Assembly (NCBI RefSeq): GCF_025356155.1 | Contig: NZ_JANXUQ010000290.1 | Span: forward strand, 1 to 52,850 | Origin: Rhodoferax sp. | GTDB lineage: Bacteria; Pseudomonadota; Gammaproteobacteria; Burkholderiales; Burkholderiaceae_C | DNA: 52,850 nt | Direction of reading: 5' to 3' | Shown here: one piece after another, positions 205-5,971 of the stretch | Layout of the letters: every line of letters starts with the position of its first letter | How positions within the stretch are numbered: the stretch's first letter is position 1 | The notes under the pieces: model-generated | What the model was told of the DNA's origin: nothing | Database searches by the model: none | The model's input: the letters and a program-made list of their open reading frames with translations, nothing else | Made by a program: the position numbers and the translations under genes

Positions 205-1488
205 GTGACAGGCACCAAGATTCCGCTCTTCCGCCAGGCGGCGCTGGACGCCCAAGCCAACCAAAGCCTGGGCAGCATTCTTCTCGTCCGCCCCATCTCC
301 TTCACAGCCATGGCCACTCTGGCCTTGGTCTGCGCCGGCGTGATCGTGACCTTTCTGTTCGTAGGCGACTACACAAAGCGCGCACAAGTAGTGGGCCTGC
401 TGGTGCCCGACTCCGGCCTTATCCGAGTGTCCTCCCCCGTAGCCGGCGTGGTCATCGCACAGCACGTCAAAGAAGGCCAAAAGGTTGTTTCCGGCCAAGC
501 GCTGTTCGTCCTCAATGCAGAAAAGCAACTGAGCCAAGCCAACGGCACAACCGTCTCCGCCAATGGCGCGTTGGACGACCTGTTTCGCGATCGCATCCGC
601 AGCCTGGCTCTGGAGAAACAACAACAAAGCCTGCTGACCGACCAAAGCCGCAAACAATCGAGTGCCGGCCTGCAATCCATGCGCACCGAGCTGACCCATC
701 TGGAACAACAGATCGCCACCCAGACCGAACGGGTAGCGTCCAGCCAAGCCCAACTCCAGCGCTGGCAAAACCTGACCGAGCAACGCTTTGCGTCGGAACT
801 AACCCTGCAGCAACACCGGGACGAATTGCTGGAGCAGCGCGCACGCTTGCAAACCCTGGAGCAATCGCGCATACGCCTGTCGCGTGAAGAAGCCGCATTG
901 GCCAGCGACCTGTTGCAACTCGGCAACCGAGCCGCGCGTGAGCACGAACAATTGCAGCGCGCAAGCACCGAAATCAAGCAGGCACGAATCAACGGACAAA
1001 TCCAAGCCCAGGTGGTCGTGACCGCCCCCATCAGTGGCACCGCCACCACCACCCTGGTGGAGGTAGGCCAAACCGTGGGCACGCAAACCCTGGTCAGCAT
1101 CGTGCCCGAAGACGCACAACTACAAGCCCACCTCTACGCACCCAGCCGCGCCGCCGGTTTCGTCGAAGCCGGGCAAACCGTGCGCCTGCGTTACGCCGCC
1201 TACCCGTATCAAAAGTTTGGCCAATATGCAGGCCAAGTCCTAGCCGTATCCCGCAGCCCCGTTTCCAGCCAAGAGCTACCAGCCGCCCTGGCCAACCTGG
1301 GCCAGCAACTGGGCGGCGAGGGCGTCTACCGCATCACCGTGCAGCTTGCCAGCCAAAGCGCCAACGTCTACGGCAAGGCACAAGCCCTACAAGCCGGCAT
1401 GCAACTGGAGGCCGATGTGCTGCAAGACACCCGCCACATCATTGAGTGGATGTTTGAATCCGTGCTCAGCTTGAAGGGCAAACTGTGA
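205..1488 (+). CDS. HlyD-family membrane fusion protein (peptide export adaptor)
   Basis: This is the periplasmic adaptor of a type I-like export system, linking the inner-membrane ABC exporter to an outer-membrane TolC channel that is not encoded here. The 427-aa product has one N-terminal membrane helix (about residues 34-55). The first half of a lipoyl/barrel-sandwich domain follows (SSPVAGVVIAQHVKEGQKV), then a long Gln-rich coiled coil (about 110-260). The second lipoyl half (VVVTAPISGTATTT) and a beta-barrel domain come last. The gene starts at GTG 205 because an in-frame TAG lies at 199-201. Its stop overlaps the start of the ABC gene by 4 nt (GTGA), indicating translational coupling. 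The family is the CvaA/MchE-like group; the assignment is firm but the exported substrate is inferred from context. Confidence 0.93.
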   Translation: MTGTKIPLFRQAALDAQANQSLGSILLVRPISFTAMATLALVCAGVIVTFLFVGDYTKRAQVVGLLVPDSGLIRVSSPVAGVVIAQHVKEGQKVVSGQALFVLNAEKQLSQANGTTVSANGALDDLFRDRIRSLALEKQQQSLLTDQSRKQSSAGLQSMRTELTHLEQQIATQTERVASSQAQLQRWQNLTEQRFASELTLQQHRDELLEQRARLQTLEQSRIRLSREEAALASDLLQLGNRAAREHEQLQRASTEIKQARINGQIQAQVVVTAPISGTATTTLVEVGQTVGTQTLVSIVPEDAQLQAHLYAPSRAAGFVEAGQTVRLRYAAYPYQKFGQYAGQVLAVSRSPVSSQELPAALANLGQQLGGEGVYRITVQLASQSANVYGKAQALQAGMQLEADVLQDTRHIIEWMFESVLSLKGKL

Positions 1489-3713
1489 GCCAGACCACCA
1501 CCGCACAACCCCAACCGCACAGCCACCCCGCACGCACGCTCACACAAGGTCTCACGGACCGTCTGCACTTCACCTGGGCCGCCCAGCTACCGGTCATCCT
1601 GCAAACCGAAGCCGCTGAATGCGGCCTGGCCTGCCTTGCCATGGTGGCGGGTTACCACGGCCACCGGGTGGACCTAGCCACTTTGCGCCAGCGCTTTGGC
1701 ATGAGCCTGAAAGGCGCAACGCTCAAGACCGTGATGGGCGTCGCCACGGCCATGCAAATGACCCCTCGGGCACTCAAGCTGGACCTGGACCACCTGCAGC
1801 AACTCAAACTACCCTGCATCCTGCACTGGGACATGCAGCACTTCGTGGTGCTGCGCAGCATAGTGCGCGACGTGGTCGAAATCCACGACCCCGGCCGTGG
1901 GCTGGTCAAGCTGCCTCTGACGGAGGTCTCCACCCACTTCAGCGGCGTAGCGCTGGAGCTCACCCCTACCGACGCCTTCGAGAAACGCGAAGAAACCCAA
2001 ACCCTGCGCCTGCGGCAGATGATGGGTCGGGTTACCGGGCTCAAGCGCTCACTGGGCCAAATCCTGCTGCTGGCCGGTGCACTGGAGGTGTTTGCCTTAG
2101 TCGCACCCTTCTTCATGCAGTGGGTGATCGACTTTGCCATCGTCAGCGCAGACCGCAATTTGTTGACCGTGCTGGCCCTGGGTTTTTGCCTGCTGGCCGT
2201 TGTGCAGACGCTCATAGGCCTGGTGCGCTCCTACGTGGTGCTGTACATGGCAACCCACGTCAACCTGCAATGGGTGGCCAATGTCTTTACCCACCTGATG
2301 CACCTGCCGGTAAGCTACTTTGAGAAACGCCACCTGGGTGACGTGGTATCGCGCTTTCGGTCGATTGACACCATACAGAGGGCACTGACCACCAGCTTTG
2401 TCGAAGCCTTGGTGGACGGCCTGATGGCGGTGGCCATGCTAGTGGTCATGGCCTACTACAGCCTGCTGCTGTGCGCGGTGGTGCTGGTTGCCATTGCGGT
2501 CTATGGCCTGTTGCGTTGGCTCAGCTATGGCCCACTGCGCCATGCCACCGAAGATCAGATCGTCCTGCAGGCCAAGGAGCAAAGCCTGTTCCTGGAATCT
2601 GTGCGCGGGGTGCAGGCTATCAAGCTCTTTGGGAACGAGGCCGACCGCACCGGCCGCTGGCTCAATGCCGTGGTGGACGCCATGAACCAGGCCTTGGCCA
2701 CTCAAAAGCTCAACATCGGCGTGCAGGGCAGCCACCAAATACTCTCCGCCCTGGAAAATATCGTGGTTGTGTGGCTCGGTGCCCGCCTGGTCATGGACAA
2801 CCAATTCACCGTCGGTATGCTGACCGCCTTCATCAGCTACAAAACCACCTTTGCCCAGCGCGTGCATTCGCTCATCGACAAGTTTGTGGAGCTGATCATG
2901 CTCAAGGTGCAAGGCGCGCGCCTGGCCGACATTGTGCTAGCACAACCCGAACCCCAGGCCCTAGGCCTGCTGCCACCGGATGACCTGACCCTCACACTCA
3001 AAGACGTGTGGTTTCGCTACAGCGAATCCGACCCCTGGGTACTGCAAGGCGTGGACCTGACCATAAAGCCCGGTGAATCGGTTGCCATTGTGGGCGGCTC
3101 GGGCTGCGGGAAAACCACCTTGCTGAAACTGTTGCTGGGGCTGATGGCACCCAGCAAGGGAGAAATCAGCCTGGGCGGGGTGTCACTGGCAACCCTGGGA
3201 CCATCGGGCTACCGGCCACTGATTGGTGCGGTCATGCAAGACGACATGCTGCTGGCGGGCACGCTGATGGAAAACATTGCCTTCTTTGACCAGCAGTCCG
3301 ATATGCAGCGCGTGGCAGCGTGTGCCCATGCGGCCGCCATCCACCAGGATATTCTGGCCATGCCCATGAACTACAACACGTTGGTGGGGGATATGGGTAG
3401 CAGCCTGTCGGGTGGACAAAAACAGCGTGTGCTGCTGGCGCGTGCGCTGTACAAAAACCCCAAGCTTTTATTTCTGGATGAAGCCACCAGCCATCTGGAT
3501 GCGCAGCGGGAGGAGTTGATCAACGAGGCAGTCAAGCAACTGCACCTGACCCGAATCATTGTGGCCCATCGGCCGACGACGATTGCAGCGGCGCGGCGGG
3601 TTATTGAGCTGGTGGACGGGTGTGTGGTGCGAGACACCCTACAGTGCGTCGTCACACAGCAAGTATCACCAAGGAATCGTGAAGCGCAGGAGCAGGACAC
3701 TGCTGCTGCATAG
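1485..3713 (+). CDS. C39-peptidase ABC exporter for double-glycine leader peptides
   Basis: This 742-aa protein is a peptidase-containing ATP-binding transporter that cuts Gly-Gly leaders on the cytoplasmic side and exports the mature peptide. Its N-terminal C39 domain has all expected catalytic residues: oxyanion Gln40, Cys46 (TEAAECGLACLAM), His119 (HWDMQHFVVL) and Asp135 (HDPGRG). A six-helix membrane domain follows (about 185-465). The nucleotide-binding domain has a Walker A motif (GGSGCGKTT, about 536-545), a signature motif (LSGGQKQR), Walker B (LLFLDEATS) and the switch His (AHRPTT). Length and order match CvaB/RaxB-type exporters. The intact C39 site implies a Gly-Gly substrate, and one is encoded 74 bp downstream. 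Confidence 0.95.
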   Translation: MSQTTTAQPQPHSHPARTLTQGLTDRLHFTWAAQLPVILQTEAAECGLACLAMVAGYHGHRVDLATLRQRFGMSLKGATLKTVMGVATAMQMTPRALKLDLDHLQQLKLPCILHWDMQHFVVLRSIVRDVVEIHDPGRGLVKLPLTEVSTHFSGVALELTPTDAFEKREETQTLRLRQMMGRVTGLKRSLGQILLLAGALEVFALVAPFFMQWVIDFAIVSADRNLLTVLALGFCLLAVVQTLIGLVRSYVVLYMATHVNLQWVANVFTHLMHLPVSYFEKRHLGDVVSRFRSIDTIQRALTTSFVEALVDGLMAVAMLVVMAYYSLLLCAVVLVAIAVYGLLRWLSYGPLRHATEDQIVLQAKEQSLFLESVRGVQAIKLFGNEADRTGRWLNAVVDAMNQALATQKLNIGVQGSHQILSALENIVVVWLGARLVMDNQFTVGMLTAFISYKTTFAQRVHSLIDKFVELIMLKVQGARLADIVLAQPEPQALGLLPPDDLTLTLKDVWFRYSESDPWVLQGVDLTIKPGESVAIVGGSGCGKTTLLKLLLGLMAPSKGEISLGGVSLATLGPSGYRPLIGAVMQDDMLLAGTLMENIAFFDQQSDMQRVAACAHAAAIHQDILAMPMNYNTLVGDMGSSLSGGQKQRVLLARALYKNPKLLFLDEATSHLDAQREELINEAVKQLHLTRIIVAHRPTTIAAARRVIELVDGCVVRDTLQCVVTQQVSPRNREAQEQDTAAA

Positions 3714-3786
3714 GGAGTTTGGCCGTGTTGGCCGAAACGCCGTTGGTGCCGGGGCGTAACTGGCACCGAATTTGAAGGAAAATCAA

Positions 3787-3945
3787 ATGCAAGAAATGAC
3801 TATGATGGAGATCGAAGAGGTTTCTGGTGGGGAGCCTGGCCCTCACGATAATGCAAGCTATACGGGGACGGATGAGCCCGGCTTAGGATATTGGACTTGC
3901 GACTCTGCTGCAGCCACTAATTGCTATTGGCATATCGTCCAGTAG
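3787..3945 (+). CDS. Double-glycine leader peptide precursor (putative microcin/bacteriocin or secreted signal)
   Basis: This 52-codon gene sits 74 bp after its presumed exporter. A good ribosome-binding site (GAAGGA, 3774-3779) lies 7 nt before the ATG, and two tandem stops (TAG TAA) end it. The first 15 residues, MQEMTMMEIEEVSGG, match the canonical Gly-Gly leader pattern (M-x-E-[LM]-x-x-x-E-I-x-x-V-S-G-G), so the C39 domain should cleave after Gly15. The predicted mature peptide has 37 residues. It is acidic and Gly/Pro-rich in its first half (EPGPHDN... TGTDEPG). The second half is aromatic, with Cys38 and Cys46 (YWTC...TNCYWHIVQ), which could form one disulfide. I recognise no known bacteriocin family in the core. 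The leader and position are seen directly; antimicrobial or signalling function is inference. Confidence 0.85.
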   Translation: MQEMTMMEIEEVSGGEPGPHDNASYTGTDEPGLGYWTCDSAAATNCYWHIVQ

Positions 3946-3975
3946 TAACGACCGACATTCATAGGTGAATAACCC

Positions 3976-4003
3976 AATGCCTCGAATTTTATTTCGAGGC
4001 ATT
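3976..4003 (+). terminator. Perfect 11-bp hairpin after the Gly-Gly peptide gene
   Basis: AATGCCTCGAA (3976-3986) pairs perfectly with TTCGAGGCATT (3993-4003) around a 6-nt loop. It starts 28 nt after the second tandem stop of the peptide gene. No run of T follows, so it is a weak intrinsic terminator. It may instead stabilise the peptide mRNA or attenuate transcription into the protease gene at 4027. Confidence 0.55.
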
Positions 4004-4026
4004 CTCATACAAGGTAAATACGAAAA

Positions 4027-4758
4027 ATGTATAAATGGATAGCGCTTGTATTGCTAATGCAACTCCAAAACTCAGCATGTGCAACTGTTCGCGTAGAGAA
4101 AAATATTTTATATATTACGGATGGCGTGGGTGGTGTGGGTATTGATGATGCCAAGAAAATAACTGAAGACCAAGCGTTCCAGAGTGTCGATCGAGTGATT
4201 ATCTCCTCCGGAGGCGGGAGGATGTTGGCGGCAATCATTATTGCGAATTGGATACACGATAAAAAACTGGATGTCGAGATTCAAAAATTCTGTGTTTCAT
4301 CATGTGCGAACTATATTTTCCCAGCCGGAAGAAAGAAAACCATTGCAGATGGGGCATTGTTAATTTGGCATGGCGGTGCATTTCAGAGTAACTTTGTGAC
4401 GACGGTAAATGGCTATGAAAAATCCTTTGTTGCGCAAGAATTAAGCTCATATCCCGATAAAAACACATTTTTCGCAAGTAAAGACAGTACTCACTATCAA
4501 AACTTAAAAATAGAACAATCATTAGAAACTTCCTTCTACAGAAAAATTGGCGTAAACCCGGGGTTGCCCACGGTTGGCCAGCGTGCAGGCGCCAACCTGC
4601 CACCTTGGACTTTGTCTATTGAAGATATGGAAAAGTTGTTCATAACAGACATTCAGTATCCGGTGGGTTACGGAACTGACGAATATCTCAAAAAATGGCT
4701 TGCGCGAACAAACGCGCCGACGCCAGTTAGGTTGTTAAAAAACTGGGTTAATGAGTGA
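4027..4758 (+). CDS. Secreted ClpP-fold serine protease-like protein (COG3904-like)
   Basis: The 243-aa product has a cleavable signal peptide (hydrophobic about 4-13, cleavage near SACA). It then shows the ClpP/crotonase fold signature of predicted periplasmic COG3904 proteins: an oxyanion-hole segment ISSGGG (about 59-64), a Cys-flanked nucleophile motif CVSSCA (Ser91 likely nucleophile, Cys89/Cys93 possible disulfide) and a downstream His115 (LLIWHGG). The start is supported by AAGGTA 11 nt upstream. The gene is clearly more AT-rich than the rest of the window, which suggests acquisition by transfer. It lies between the Gly-Gly peptide gene and an IS630 element, so a role in processing, activating or resisting the peptide is possible. 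That role is inference, and no experimentally known partner of this type is known to me. Confidence 0.75.
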   Translation: MYKWIALVLLMQLQNSACATVRVEKNILYITDGVGGVGIDDAKKITEDQAFQSVDRVIISSGGGRMLAAIIIANWIHDKKLDVEIQKFCVSSCANYIFPAGRKKTIADGALLIWHGGAFQSNFVTTVNGYEKSFVAQELSSYPDKNTFFASKDSTHYQNLKIEQSLETSFYRKIGVNPGLPTVGQRAGANLPPWTLSIEDMEKLFITDIQYPVGYGTDEYLKKWLARTNAPTPVRLLKNWVNE

Positions 4759-4791
4759 CCCTTGTGAAGCTGAGGTAGATGTCGTGTTGCA

Positions 4792-5971
4792 TACTAGCGT
4801 GGTGTTTCACGCTGTTTGAACCGTATTGAGCTTTGCCTTGGCCCGGATGACTTTCTCCAGAATGTCACGCGCGCTTGCCGTCCAGATGAAGGGCTTGGGA
4901 TTCTCGTTGTGTGCGAGCACGAAGAGCTCGATTGCAGTGACCAACTCGTCAACACTTCTAAACGCCCCGCGCTTGAGTCGATCCTCGCTGAGGTTTCTGA
5001 AGAAACGCTCCACCATGTTCATCCATGAGGCGCTGGTTGCGGTGAAGTGCATGTGAAAGCGGGGTCGCTTGGCCAGCCACTTCAATACCTTGGGATGTTT
5101 GTGCGTGGCGTAGTTGTCCAGCACCACGTGGATTTGCAAGTCTGACGCCACGTTGGCATCGATTTGCTTTAGAAACTTCAACCACTCAATGTGCCGGTGG
5201 CGCGCCTGGCACTGTGAGATAACACTGCCATCCAACATGTTGAGCGCCGCAAACAGCGTGGTCGTTCCATGGCGCTTGTAGTCGTGGGTCATGGTTTGGG
5301 CCCGTCCACGCTTGAGCGGCAAGCCCGGCTGGGTACGATCCAGTGCCTGCACCTGGCTCTTCTCGTCGCAGCACAACACCACAGCGCGTTCTGGCGGGCT
5401 CATGTACAGCCCAACGATGTCGGTGAGCTTTTCCTCGAACCGGATGTCATTGGAGACTTTGAAGGTCTTGCTCAAATGGGGCTTGAGTCCGTGGCTGCGC
5501 CAAATGCGCGATACCGTGGCCGCGCTGGCTCCGGCTTCTTTGGCCATGGTGCGTGTGCTCCAGTGGGTGGCCGCCTCGGGCTGGGTTTGCGTGGTCAACT
5601 CAATAACCCGTTGTACGCTTACCTTGCGCGGGCGCCCACCACGAGGGGCGTCTTTCTCCAACCCCGCAAGGCCCAGCTTGACGTAGCGGGCCACCCAGCG
5701 GCGCACCCGGGGTGCGCTCACGCCAATCTCTTTCGCGATCACGCTGTCAGTAAACCCTGTGGCCGCCATCAACACCATGTTGGCTCGTACTGCGCAACGA
5801 ACGCTGGTCAGGCTCGATGTACTCCAACGCAGCAAGCTATCCAAGTCATCTTTGCCAAACTCGACGAGTACTTTGCGATTGATCACTTTGATGCCCCTTA
5901 AAACTGAAAGGTCCTCGCTTGGAGAAGAGTATCCAGAAAAGGTTCAATATATATGAAGCACTACACTAGTA
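4792..5971. mobile_element. IS630-family insertion sequence, apparently complete
   Basis: Terminal inverted repeats flank the transposase gene. TACTAGCGTGGTGTTTCA (4792-4809) matches the reverse complement of 5954-5971 at 15 of 18 positions. A further TTGAACC match lies inside both ends (4818-4824 and its counterpart near 5940-5946). TA dinucleotides, and CTAG, occur at both ends, consistent with TA target duplication by IS630/Tc1-mariner elements; the exact outer base pair is uncertain by a few nt. The element interrupts the space between the peptide island and the flavodoxin-like gene. Confidence 0.85.
4807..5886 (-). CDS. IS630-family transposase
   Basis: This 359-aa DDE transposase has an N-terminal helix-turn-helix region (about 30-110) with a basic GGRPRK linker. 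A winged-helix segment follows (STRTMAKEAGASAATVSRIW). The RNase H-like catalytic domain carries Asp in VVLCCDEKSQ, Asp in IHVVLDNYATH and Glu in SWMNMVERFF, the IS630/Tc1-mariner triad. Length is normal and no frameshift is seen, so it may be active. The start is a GTG (5884-5886). Confidence 0.95.
   Translation of the reverse strand: MINRKVLVEFGKDDLDSLLRWSTSSLTSVRCAVRANMVLMAATGFTDSVIAKEIGVSAPRVRRWVARYVKLGLAGLEKDAPRGGRPRKVSVQRVIELTTQTQPEAATHWSTRTMAKEAGASAATVSRIWRSHGLKPHLSKTFKVSNDIRFEEKLTDIVGLYMSPPERAVVLCCDEKSQVQALDRTQPGLPLKRGRAQTMTHDYKRHGTTTLFAALNMLDGSVISQCQARHRHIEWLKFLKQIDANVASDLQIHVVLDNYATHKHPKVLKWLAKRPRFHMHFTATSASWMNMVERFFRNLSEDRLKRGAFRSVDELVTAIELFVLAHNENPKPFIWTASARDILEKVIRAKAKLNTVQTA

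Follow-up and report, generated by a model that had tools for sequence, protein, structure and literature searches.

A double-glycine peptide gene beside a C39 exporter in a Rhodoferax contig, and the recurrent pairing of such peptide genes with genes for predicted ClpP-fold proteins

Contig NZ_JANXUQ010000290.1 of Rhodoferax sp. (G000:C263), the whole of which (positions 1 to 52850) was analysed and is called the window here, carries a small, unannotated gene for a double-glycine (GG) precursor peptide between the gene for a C39 peptidase-containing ABC exporter and a gene for a predicted ClpP-fold protein. Pairs of a GG peptide gene and a ClpP-like gene were also found in Azospirillum, in several genomes of the window's family, and on plasmids of Vibrio, Pantoea and Klebsiella, mostly together with HlyD and a C39 exporter. 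The computation established the leader, the exporter triad, a different core at the same position in a related locus, and the recurrent pairing of ClpP-like genes with two-cysteine peptides. As the best explanation we propose, with a probability of roughly 0.5 that includes the immunity role, a microcin-like peptide in the style of class IIa with a ClpP-like periplasmic immunity protease. The ClpP-like neighbour, which was absent from an earlier sequence-only reading of this DNA, points to a toxin-immunity pair. The features of the locus are as follows.

205 to 1488, plus strand: hlyD, encoding the exporter's membrane fusion protein (start codon GTG; Pfam HlyD_3 and HlyD_D23 over cut-off)
1485 to 3713, plus strand: C39 peptidase-containing ABC exporter, 742 aa, overlapping hlyD (from Pfam, catalytic triad and ATPase motifs)
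3775 to 3779, plus strand: ribosome-binding site AAGGA, read off the sequence
3787 to 3945, plus strand: double-glycine precursor peptide, 52 aa (leader 3787 to 3831, core 3832 to 3942, stops TAG TAA)
3976 to 4003, plus strand: hairpin of 11 bp between the peptide gene and the ClpP-like gene (from the fold of 3946 to 4026)
4027 to 4758, plus strand: predicted ClpP-fold protein, 243 aa, candidate immunity protease (from structure model, Foldseek and pairing with GG peptides)
4792 to 5971, minus strand: IS630-family element, right boundary of the cassette (ends placed by eye from the inverted ends)

The genome carrying the contig comprises 5.09 Mb in 318 contigs (completeness 96.7, contamination 6.2). 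The contig starts with a run of C and hlyD begins 204 bp in (1 to 204), and the operon might continue to the left of the contig edge, upstream of hlyD. On the right, the IS630 element starts 34 bp past the ClpP-like gene, and its transposase (4807 to 5886, minus strand) matched transpos_IS630 of NCBIfam with an E value of 2e-78. GC content drops along the locus, being 61% for hlyD and the exporter, 51% for the peptide gene and 42% for the ClpP-like gene, as expected for an exchanged cassette. The region from 3946 to 4026 folded with a z-score of -3.69, none of 200 shuffles being equally stable, and the hairpin within it is possibly an attenuator or an mRNA stabiliser. No sigma-70-like promoter was scored between 3600 and 4850 (mean of the shuffles, 2.2), so the genes are most simply assumed to be transcribed from upstream.

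The peptide ORF consists of 52 codons starting with ATG and followed by the tandem stops TAG TAA, and AAGGA lies 7 nt ahead of the ATG, which confirms the gene described in the sequence-only reading; the adjacency to the exporter given there also stands, and the spacing is corrected from 74 bp to 73 bp (exporter end at 3713, ATG at 3787). The 15-aa leader, MQEMTMMEIEEVSGG, is a canonical double-glycine leader: positions -4, -7 and -12 are hydrophobic, -8 is Glu, and -2/-1 are Gly-Gly. The 37-aa core contains Cys38 and Cys46 and ends in YWTC...NCYWHIVQ, in agreement with the two cysteines and the Trp/Tyr-rich C-terminus noted earlier. Its computed average mass is 4028.2 Da in reduced form; with a pI of 4.1, no Lys or Arg, and five Asp/Glu, the core is acidic. 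An AlphaFold model of the peptide alone (pLDDT 60, pTM 0.30), in which strands 34-38 and 46-50 would bring Cys38 and Cys46 close to each other, was too weak for use.

GG ORFs were scored on leader features, start codon and ribosome-binding site. Among 3000 simulated 500-nt stretches (first-order Markov, local composition), none gave a plus-strand ORF with an equal score, this score being of our own design and made after such leaders had been viewed. Forty simulated windows contained a mean of 0 ORFs at that score; the real window contains one, plus a weaker ORF on the other strand at 4536 to 4652. Judged from these sequence features, the ORF at 3787 to 3945 is genuine and encodes a double-glycine precursor, which is very probably a true exported substrate of the C39 exporter.

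In the exporter, Peptidase_C39, ABC_membrane and ABC_tran were all over their Pfam cut-offs, and Walker A, signature and Walker B were all present. The C39 residues reported as intact in the sequence-only reading are there as Cys46-His119-Asp135, with spacings of 73 and 16 residues, the same as those of the CvaB triad Cys32-His105-Asp121 in the available text of PMC9746304. The best NCBIfam score was that of an NHLP-type exporter, far under cut-off. In a scan of 89 exporter loci, that of the window among them, 60 yielded a total of 98 GG-type ORFs with very diverse cores; the exporters form a family whose cargo is exchangeable. The window's own genome also has a distant C39-type exporter, 29% identical (G000:C18:6557-8671, L132).

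The closest relative of the exporter was found in Rhodoferax MAG bin_229 (locus L005, identical to L142, contig G054:C129), with 84% identity for the exporter and 67% for HlyD. There, an ORF starting MQELNMLEIEEVGAG begins 58 bp past the exporter, in the same place as the window peptide, and it was the sole leader-type ORF reported by a scan of the 18.5-kb contig in which Ala-Gly was allowed. The two leaders share 36 of their 45 nucleotides and 10 of their 15 residues, and the DNA ahead of the ATG is alignable. Past the leader the similarity fades; the L005 core, DAAATRPPGTNSWGEYVSIVGEQWQRWY, is different and has no Cys. Thus, the leader stays with the exporter and the cargo differs. The L005 leader ends in Gly-Ala-Gly, against Ser-Gly-Gly in the window, and, lacking the strict Gly-Gly, may be on its way out. 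Conservation of the leader and of two Cys in related loci, proposed earlier as a check, was thus borne out in this one close locus for the ORF itself but neither for the cysteines nor for the strict Gly-Gly. Cleavage after Gly-Gly and export by the C39 exporter, as previously suggested, are well supported as predictions by the leader, the exporter, the position and the L005 leader. No ClpP-like gene was seen on the L005 contig. Beside hlyD, L005 carries a 178-aa Gly-rich ORF (4051 to 4587, minus strand) that belongs to no Pfam family.

Similarity searches with the peptide gave no match in Pfam and, in NCBIfam, one sub-cut-off match that covered the leader only (TIGR03949, cerein/lactobin-type class IIb bacteriocin; 8.7 bits against a cut-off of 21.5; residues 2-15). 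Four plasmid records were hit at E values of 6 to 8, and one additional place in the window's own genome at 0.4. Matches at E 0.01 were obtained in 3 of 198 genomes of relatives, and matches in 3 of 399 genomes of the order, the window's own genome being among the three in both cases; the four other genomic places were taken as chance, no leader-type ORF containing the match. The window core thus had no relative in the Pfam, NCBIfam, plasmid, 198-relative or 399-genome searches, which counts against the best explanation given above.

The ClpP-like gene starts 81 bp downstream of the peptide gene. Its 243-aa product matched no Pfam family at an E value of 1 and did not reach the gathering cut-off of PF00574, for which a relative in locus L126 (10413 to 11141) scored 17.7 bits (cut-off, 20.2). 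Matches in NCBIfam were weak, the best being to a ClpP-related phage protease (E = 1.5e-4), and no relative was found in phage records at 1e-5. The AlphaFold model (alignment of 11 sequences; mean pLDDT 80.9, pTM 0.79) was compared with solved structures in Foldseek, and the best matches were ClpP (E = 4.1e-6, probability 1.00, TM 0.46/0.56). On the strength of this model the product is assigned a ClpP fold. It would share with ClpP, besides the fold, a Ser and a His in the matching region, as aligned; identity in the listed structural matches was 11-18%. It differs from ClpP in lacking a Pfam ClpP match and in having a hydrophobic N-terminus and a CxSxCANY motif. In nine paired members, including that of the window, G35, S61, G63, G64, C89, S91, C93, A94, N95, Y96, H115 and G116 (window numbering) are invariant, the window protein having C89-x-S91-x-C93-ANY and H115. 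A short hydrophobic N-terminus, recognised by eye, suggests that the protein may be exported or membrane-anchored; the strongest hydrophobic 12-mer in the first 70 residues is not at the N-terminus. We take COG3904 to be a likely home of the family; the papers listed by one open-access literature search contain no mention of COG3904.

The window's own genome has one more ClpP-like gene (G000:C8:16428-17183; L129 8420-9208), which lacks a GG neighbour. Two tandem ClpP-like genes lie beside a Fic/DOC-family gene in L126 (9508 to 13713, G008:C89), directly after hlyD, and in L125 (2313 to 5134, G054:C47), and in the second tandem paralogue the WHG histidine motif is replaced. The Fic neighbours were considered as a sign of a wider operon, and this was rejected because these loci have no convincing GG neighbour.

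The gene arrangements of the other paired loci are as follows.

L037, Azospirillum RU38E: HlyD, two peptides, ClpP-like, exporter
L153, G412: HlyD, peptide, ClpP-like, exporter with two in-frame stops
L157, G279: two peptides, ClpP-like, exporter
L158, G209: peptide, ClpP-like; exporters on other contigs
L160, G329: HlyD, peptide, ClpP-like, exporter
L177, Vibrio maritimus plasmid: peptide, ClpP-like, HlyD, exporter
L172 and L202, Pantoea dispersa plasmids: ClpP-like, peptide, HlyD, exporter
L197 and L198, Klebsiella variicola and K. pneumoniae plasmids: ClpP-like, peptide, HlyD, exporter
L171, second K. pneumoniae plasmid: IS3-family gene right after a shortened peptide; HlyD and exporter missing
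L204, G1513: ClpP-like, peptide, HlyD, exporter

The adjacency of peptide and ClpP-like gene is kept in both gene orders and at varying places relative to the exporter. Of 48 ClpP-like genes (45 loci), 14 had a GG ORF on their own strand no more than 300 bp away, the one in L126 being probably spurious, and 10 of the 12 ClpP-like genes with an exporter within 3 kb had such a neighbour. The L160 peptide was entered by hand, the scorer having chosen a second site in the same ORF; without L160 the counts are 13/48 and 9/12. As background, 903,132 strand-bases of exporter-less loci contained five GG ORFs, which corresponds to 0.0033 per 600 nt of a single strand, and three of the five were themselves paired with ClpP-like genes. 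The exporter-linked ClpP-like genes of L126 and L212 had no convincing GG neighbour. Against the proposed pairing, 34 of the 48 ClpP-like genes have no GG neighbour, so that the family has additional roles, and, seen from the exporter side, a ClpP-like gene was present in only 2 of 110 loci, one of the two being that of the window. Three further loci (L154, L156 and L183), in which no family ORF was called, are outside the 48 and had no GG ORF within 300 bp of the matches. In L153, the exporter (G412:C11:120702-122780) has two in-frame stops, and the peptide and ClpP-like genes are open; the peptide and candidate immunity gene thus seem to outlive the exporter here.

The counts depend in part on how the loci were sampled. 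Alignment A1 was made before the pairing was noticed, and A2 and A3 were made partly or wholly from paired members, so that the counts are partly biased. The least biased subset is the family search with A1, in which 4 of 8 other genomes had the pairing. The genus search with the window protein gave no convincing pairing among nine other places (one doubtful GG ORF, in L126), the class search with A2 gave 0 of 6, and the phylum search with A3 gave 1 of 10. The plasmid search gave six pairings in the 15 records read, out of 18. The Azospirillum locus entered the sample through the exporter search. On a tree of 40 ClpP-like proteins, which left out six near-copies and two rows under 170 aa and in which long branches leave the deep joins unsure, the 10 paired proteins require six changes, against a mean of 9.1 in shuffles (5 of 500 as low); the pairing is clustered yet scattered. 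The window's protein is most closely related to the paired protein of L153 (support 99/94).

Exactly two Cys were found in all 12 distinct full-length paired cores and in 13 of 60 control cores (Fisher p = 3.4e-7), the 12 being partly dependent (L197 and L204 are near-copies, and two loci supply two peptides each). The control cores came from GG ORFs of 46 exporter loci; 58 were distinct, of which 12 had two Cys. Thresholds were a leader score of 8 and a total of 11 for paired ORFs, and 10 and 13 for control ORFs. The IS-cut peptide of L171, with one Cys left, and the doubtful L126 ORF, with none, were left out of the 12. Between the two Cys, the paired cores have 6 to 25 residues. Apart from the two Cys, the window core has no similarity to the paired cores: in comparisons with the 11 others, 103 to 874 of 1000 shuffles scored equally high, and in a multiple alignment of the paired peptides the leaders alone align. 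As the adjacency survives changes of order and place and all 12 cores carry two Cys, the two genes likely form a functional pair. We found no description of this pairing in the open-access literature searched and make no claim to its novelty in print.

For the window system, we infer export, disulfide formation, killing, proteolysis and immunity, the steps of export and action being drawn from known class II microcin systems as described in the available texts of PMC10233263, PMC9746304 and PMC2761928. The C39 domain would bind the leader and cut after Gly15, and the core would be pumped out through HlyD and a TolC-type channel, releasing a 37-residue acidic peptide. Outside the cytoplasm, a Cys38-Cys46 disulfide would probably close a small ring. 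The peptide would enter close relatives and act at the inner membrane as a narrow-range antibacterial. In the producer's periplasm, the exported ClpP-fold protein would meet re-entering or leaked peptide and cleave it, thereby conferring immunity; for MccV, leakage of the microcin into the periplasm during secretion is described (PMC13101503, available part). Core and immunity gene would be swapped as a cassette, with exporter and leader remaining. In a more general and more tentative form, which we hold at slightly under even odds, the pairs would represent a widespread Gram-negative toxin-antidote cassette, in which a short two-Cys GG peptide is accompanied by a dedicated ClpP-fold periplasmic protease that destroys it, and which moves as a unit, in either order, between C39 exporter loci of Alpha-, Beta- and Gammaproteobacteria, leaving leader and exporter behind.

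The same genes could encode a cell-to-cell signal that a ClpP-like periplasmic protease trims or degrades to set the response, which we consider unlikely. The short size and the acidic core without Lys or Arg, unlike typical membrane-active bacteriocins, would suit a signal; C39 exporters carry signals too, and the gonococcal GG peptides, according to the available text of PMC11798529, trigger autolysis and do not kill competitors. However, no receptor or regulator gene was found between 205 and 4758, the rapid exchange of cores between close relatives suits toxins more, and some paired cores are cationic, with pI values of 8.1-9.9 (L157b, L172, L177, L197, L204). It is similarly improbable that the ClpP-like protein serves as a protease in maturation or quality control, or belongs to the exporter machinery, with immunity provided by another gene that perhaps lies beyond the left end of the contig. 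The ClpP fold is that of a general protease, many family members lack GG neighbours, and operon genes may be missing where the contig ends 204 bp ahead of hlyD. In the paired loci, however, the ClpP-like gene follows the peptide and not the exporter genes when the order changes, and it is absent from L005, where the core differs despite the 84% identical exporter. In addition, peptides exported by type I systems mostly skip the periplasm.

Modification of the core before export, as in a RiPP precursor, by enzymes encoded beyond the contig edge is a far less probable explanation: C39 exporters serve modified peptides too, the NHLP-type score of the exporter, far under cut-off as it was, fits this, and the upstream DNA is missing, but no modification enzyme was found between 205 and 4758, and none was recognised next to the paired genes on the annotated plasmids. 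We likewise consider it very unlikely that the locus is a decayed or silent cassette that has lost expression between the contig edge and the IS element. The proximity of that element, the lack of a sigma-70-like promoter in 3600 to 4850 and the loss of Gly-Gly in the L005 leader agree with decay; against it, all four genes are open, and the active-site residues of the exporter and the ClpP-like protein are intact.

The microcin-like reading, with the ClpP-like protein as its immunity protease, was compared with known systems. Like class II microcins, the window system has a double-glycine leader and, in the cluster, a C39 exporter with its triad and a membrane fusion protein; like class IIa, its core has two Cys with a predicted disulfide and no Gly/Ser-rich siderophore tail (C-terminus NCYWHIVQ). 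It thus resembles MccV of class IIa (CvaC, Cvi, CvaB, CvaA) in GG leader, C39 exporter, HlyD-type adaptor and two Cys; class IIa candidates of Pantoea and Erwinia also have two Cys (PMC13174018, available part). Known microcin immunity genes adjoin the microcin gene (PMC10233263, PMC2761928; available parts), MccV-type systems having a small neighbouring one, and the window has a neighbouring candidate in its ClpP-like gene, recurrently paired elsewhere. In the available text of PMC10233263, the ten known class II microcins have core lengths of 60-90 aa, a range that excludes the 37-aa window core, and known immunity proteins have 51-216 aa and are typically predicted at the inner membrane; the window candidate is larger, a 243-aa protein of predicted ClpP fold. 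Because of the core length, and because antibacterial activity is a prediction here, we do not file the system as a class IIa microcin.

Moraxella McbABCI resembles the window in having a GG peptide gene directly after HlyD- and ABC-type secretion genes and, directly after the peptide gene, an immunity gene, which in the window is a candidate one; its McbI, in contrast, is a 74-aa protein, predicted helical and not ClpP-like, and its peptide and immunity genes overlap, whereas the peptide and candidate immunity genes of the window are separated by 81 bp and a hairpin (available text of PMC2761928). Neisseria Nap shares short GG peptides in a Gram-negative host, a C39 peptidase and a putative immunity gene, but its peptides are cationic and autolysis-linked and use another export channel, and a ClpP-like partner is not mentioned in the available text of PMC11798529. 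A combination of GG peptide, C39 exporter and neighbouring immunity gene is thus already known.

A proteolytic antidote also has a precedent. Kim et al. (2024, Cell Host Microbe) reportedly describe, judging by the title, a Vibrio cholerae microcin with proteolytic immunity, in which the immunity protein is said to be a protease that cleaves the microcin. We liken it to the proposed window system at the level of the mechanism and not of the protease sequences.

The part of specialist interest is the recurrent cassette of two-Cys peptide and ClpP-like gene. Cores and immunity genes of class II microcins are too diverged for similarity detection (PMC9746304, PMC10233263), and the ten class II microcins that the 2022 review gives as verified are all from enteric bacteria (PMC10233263; available parts in each case). 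A recognisable ClpP-like partner would be a handle for finding such peptides, very short ones included, beyond enteric bacteria. If the partner cleaves the peptide, the use of a specific immunity protease would amount to a general strategy with more than one case.

The survey of exporter loci also revealed groups of GG precursors with related cores. In 9 of 17 Microvirga loci (L033, L034, L035, L040, L041, L043, L045, L046, L048), GG precursors with cores of about 8-13 residues lie just past the exporter on the opposite strand, at about 8.2-8.6 kb. These cores have RRIIVY in common (RRIIIY in L041), and the precursors look like a conserved short exported signal peptide. GG precursors of L019 and L055 (Janthinobacterium), L056, L059 and L070 (Alteromonas) have cores with at least one AIGE(E/D)GG-type motif; these motifs might be repeat units that are released from a single precursor by cleavage.
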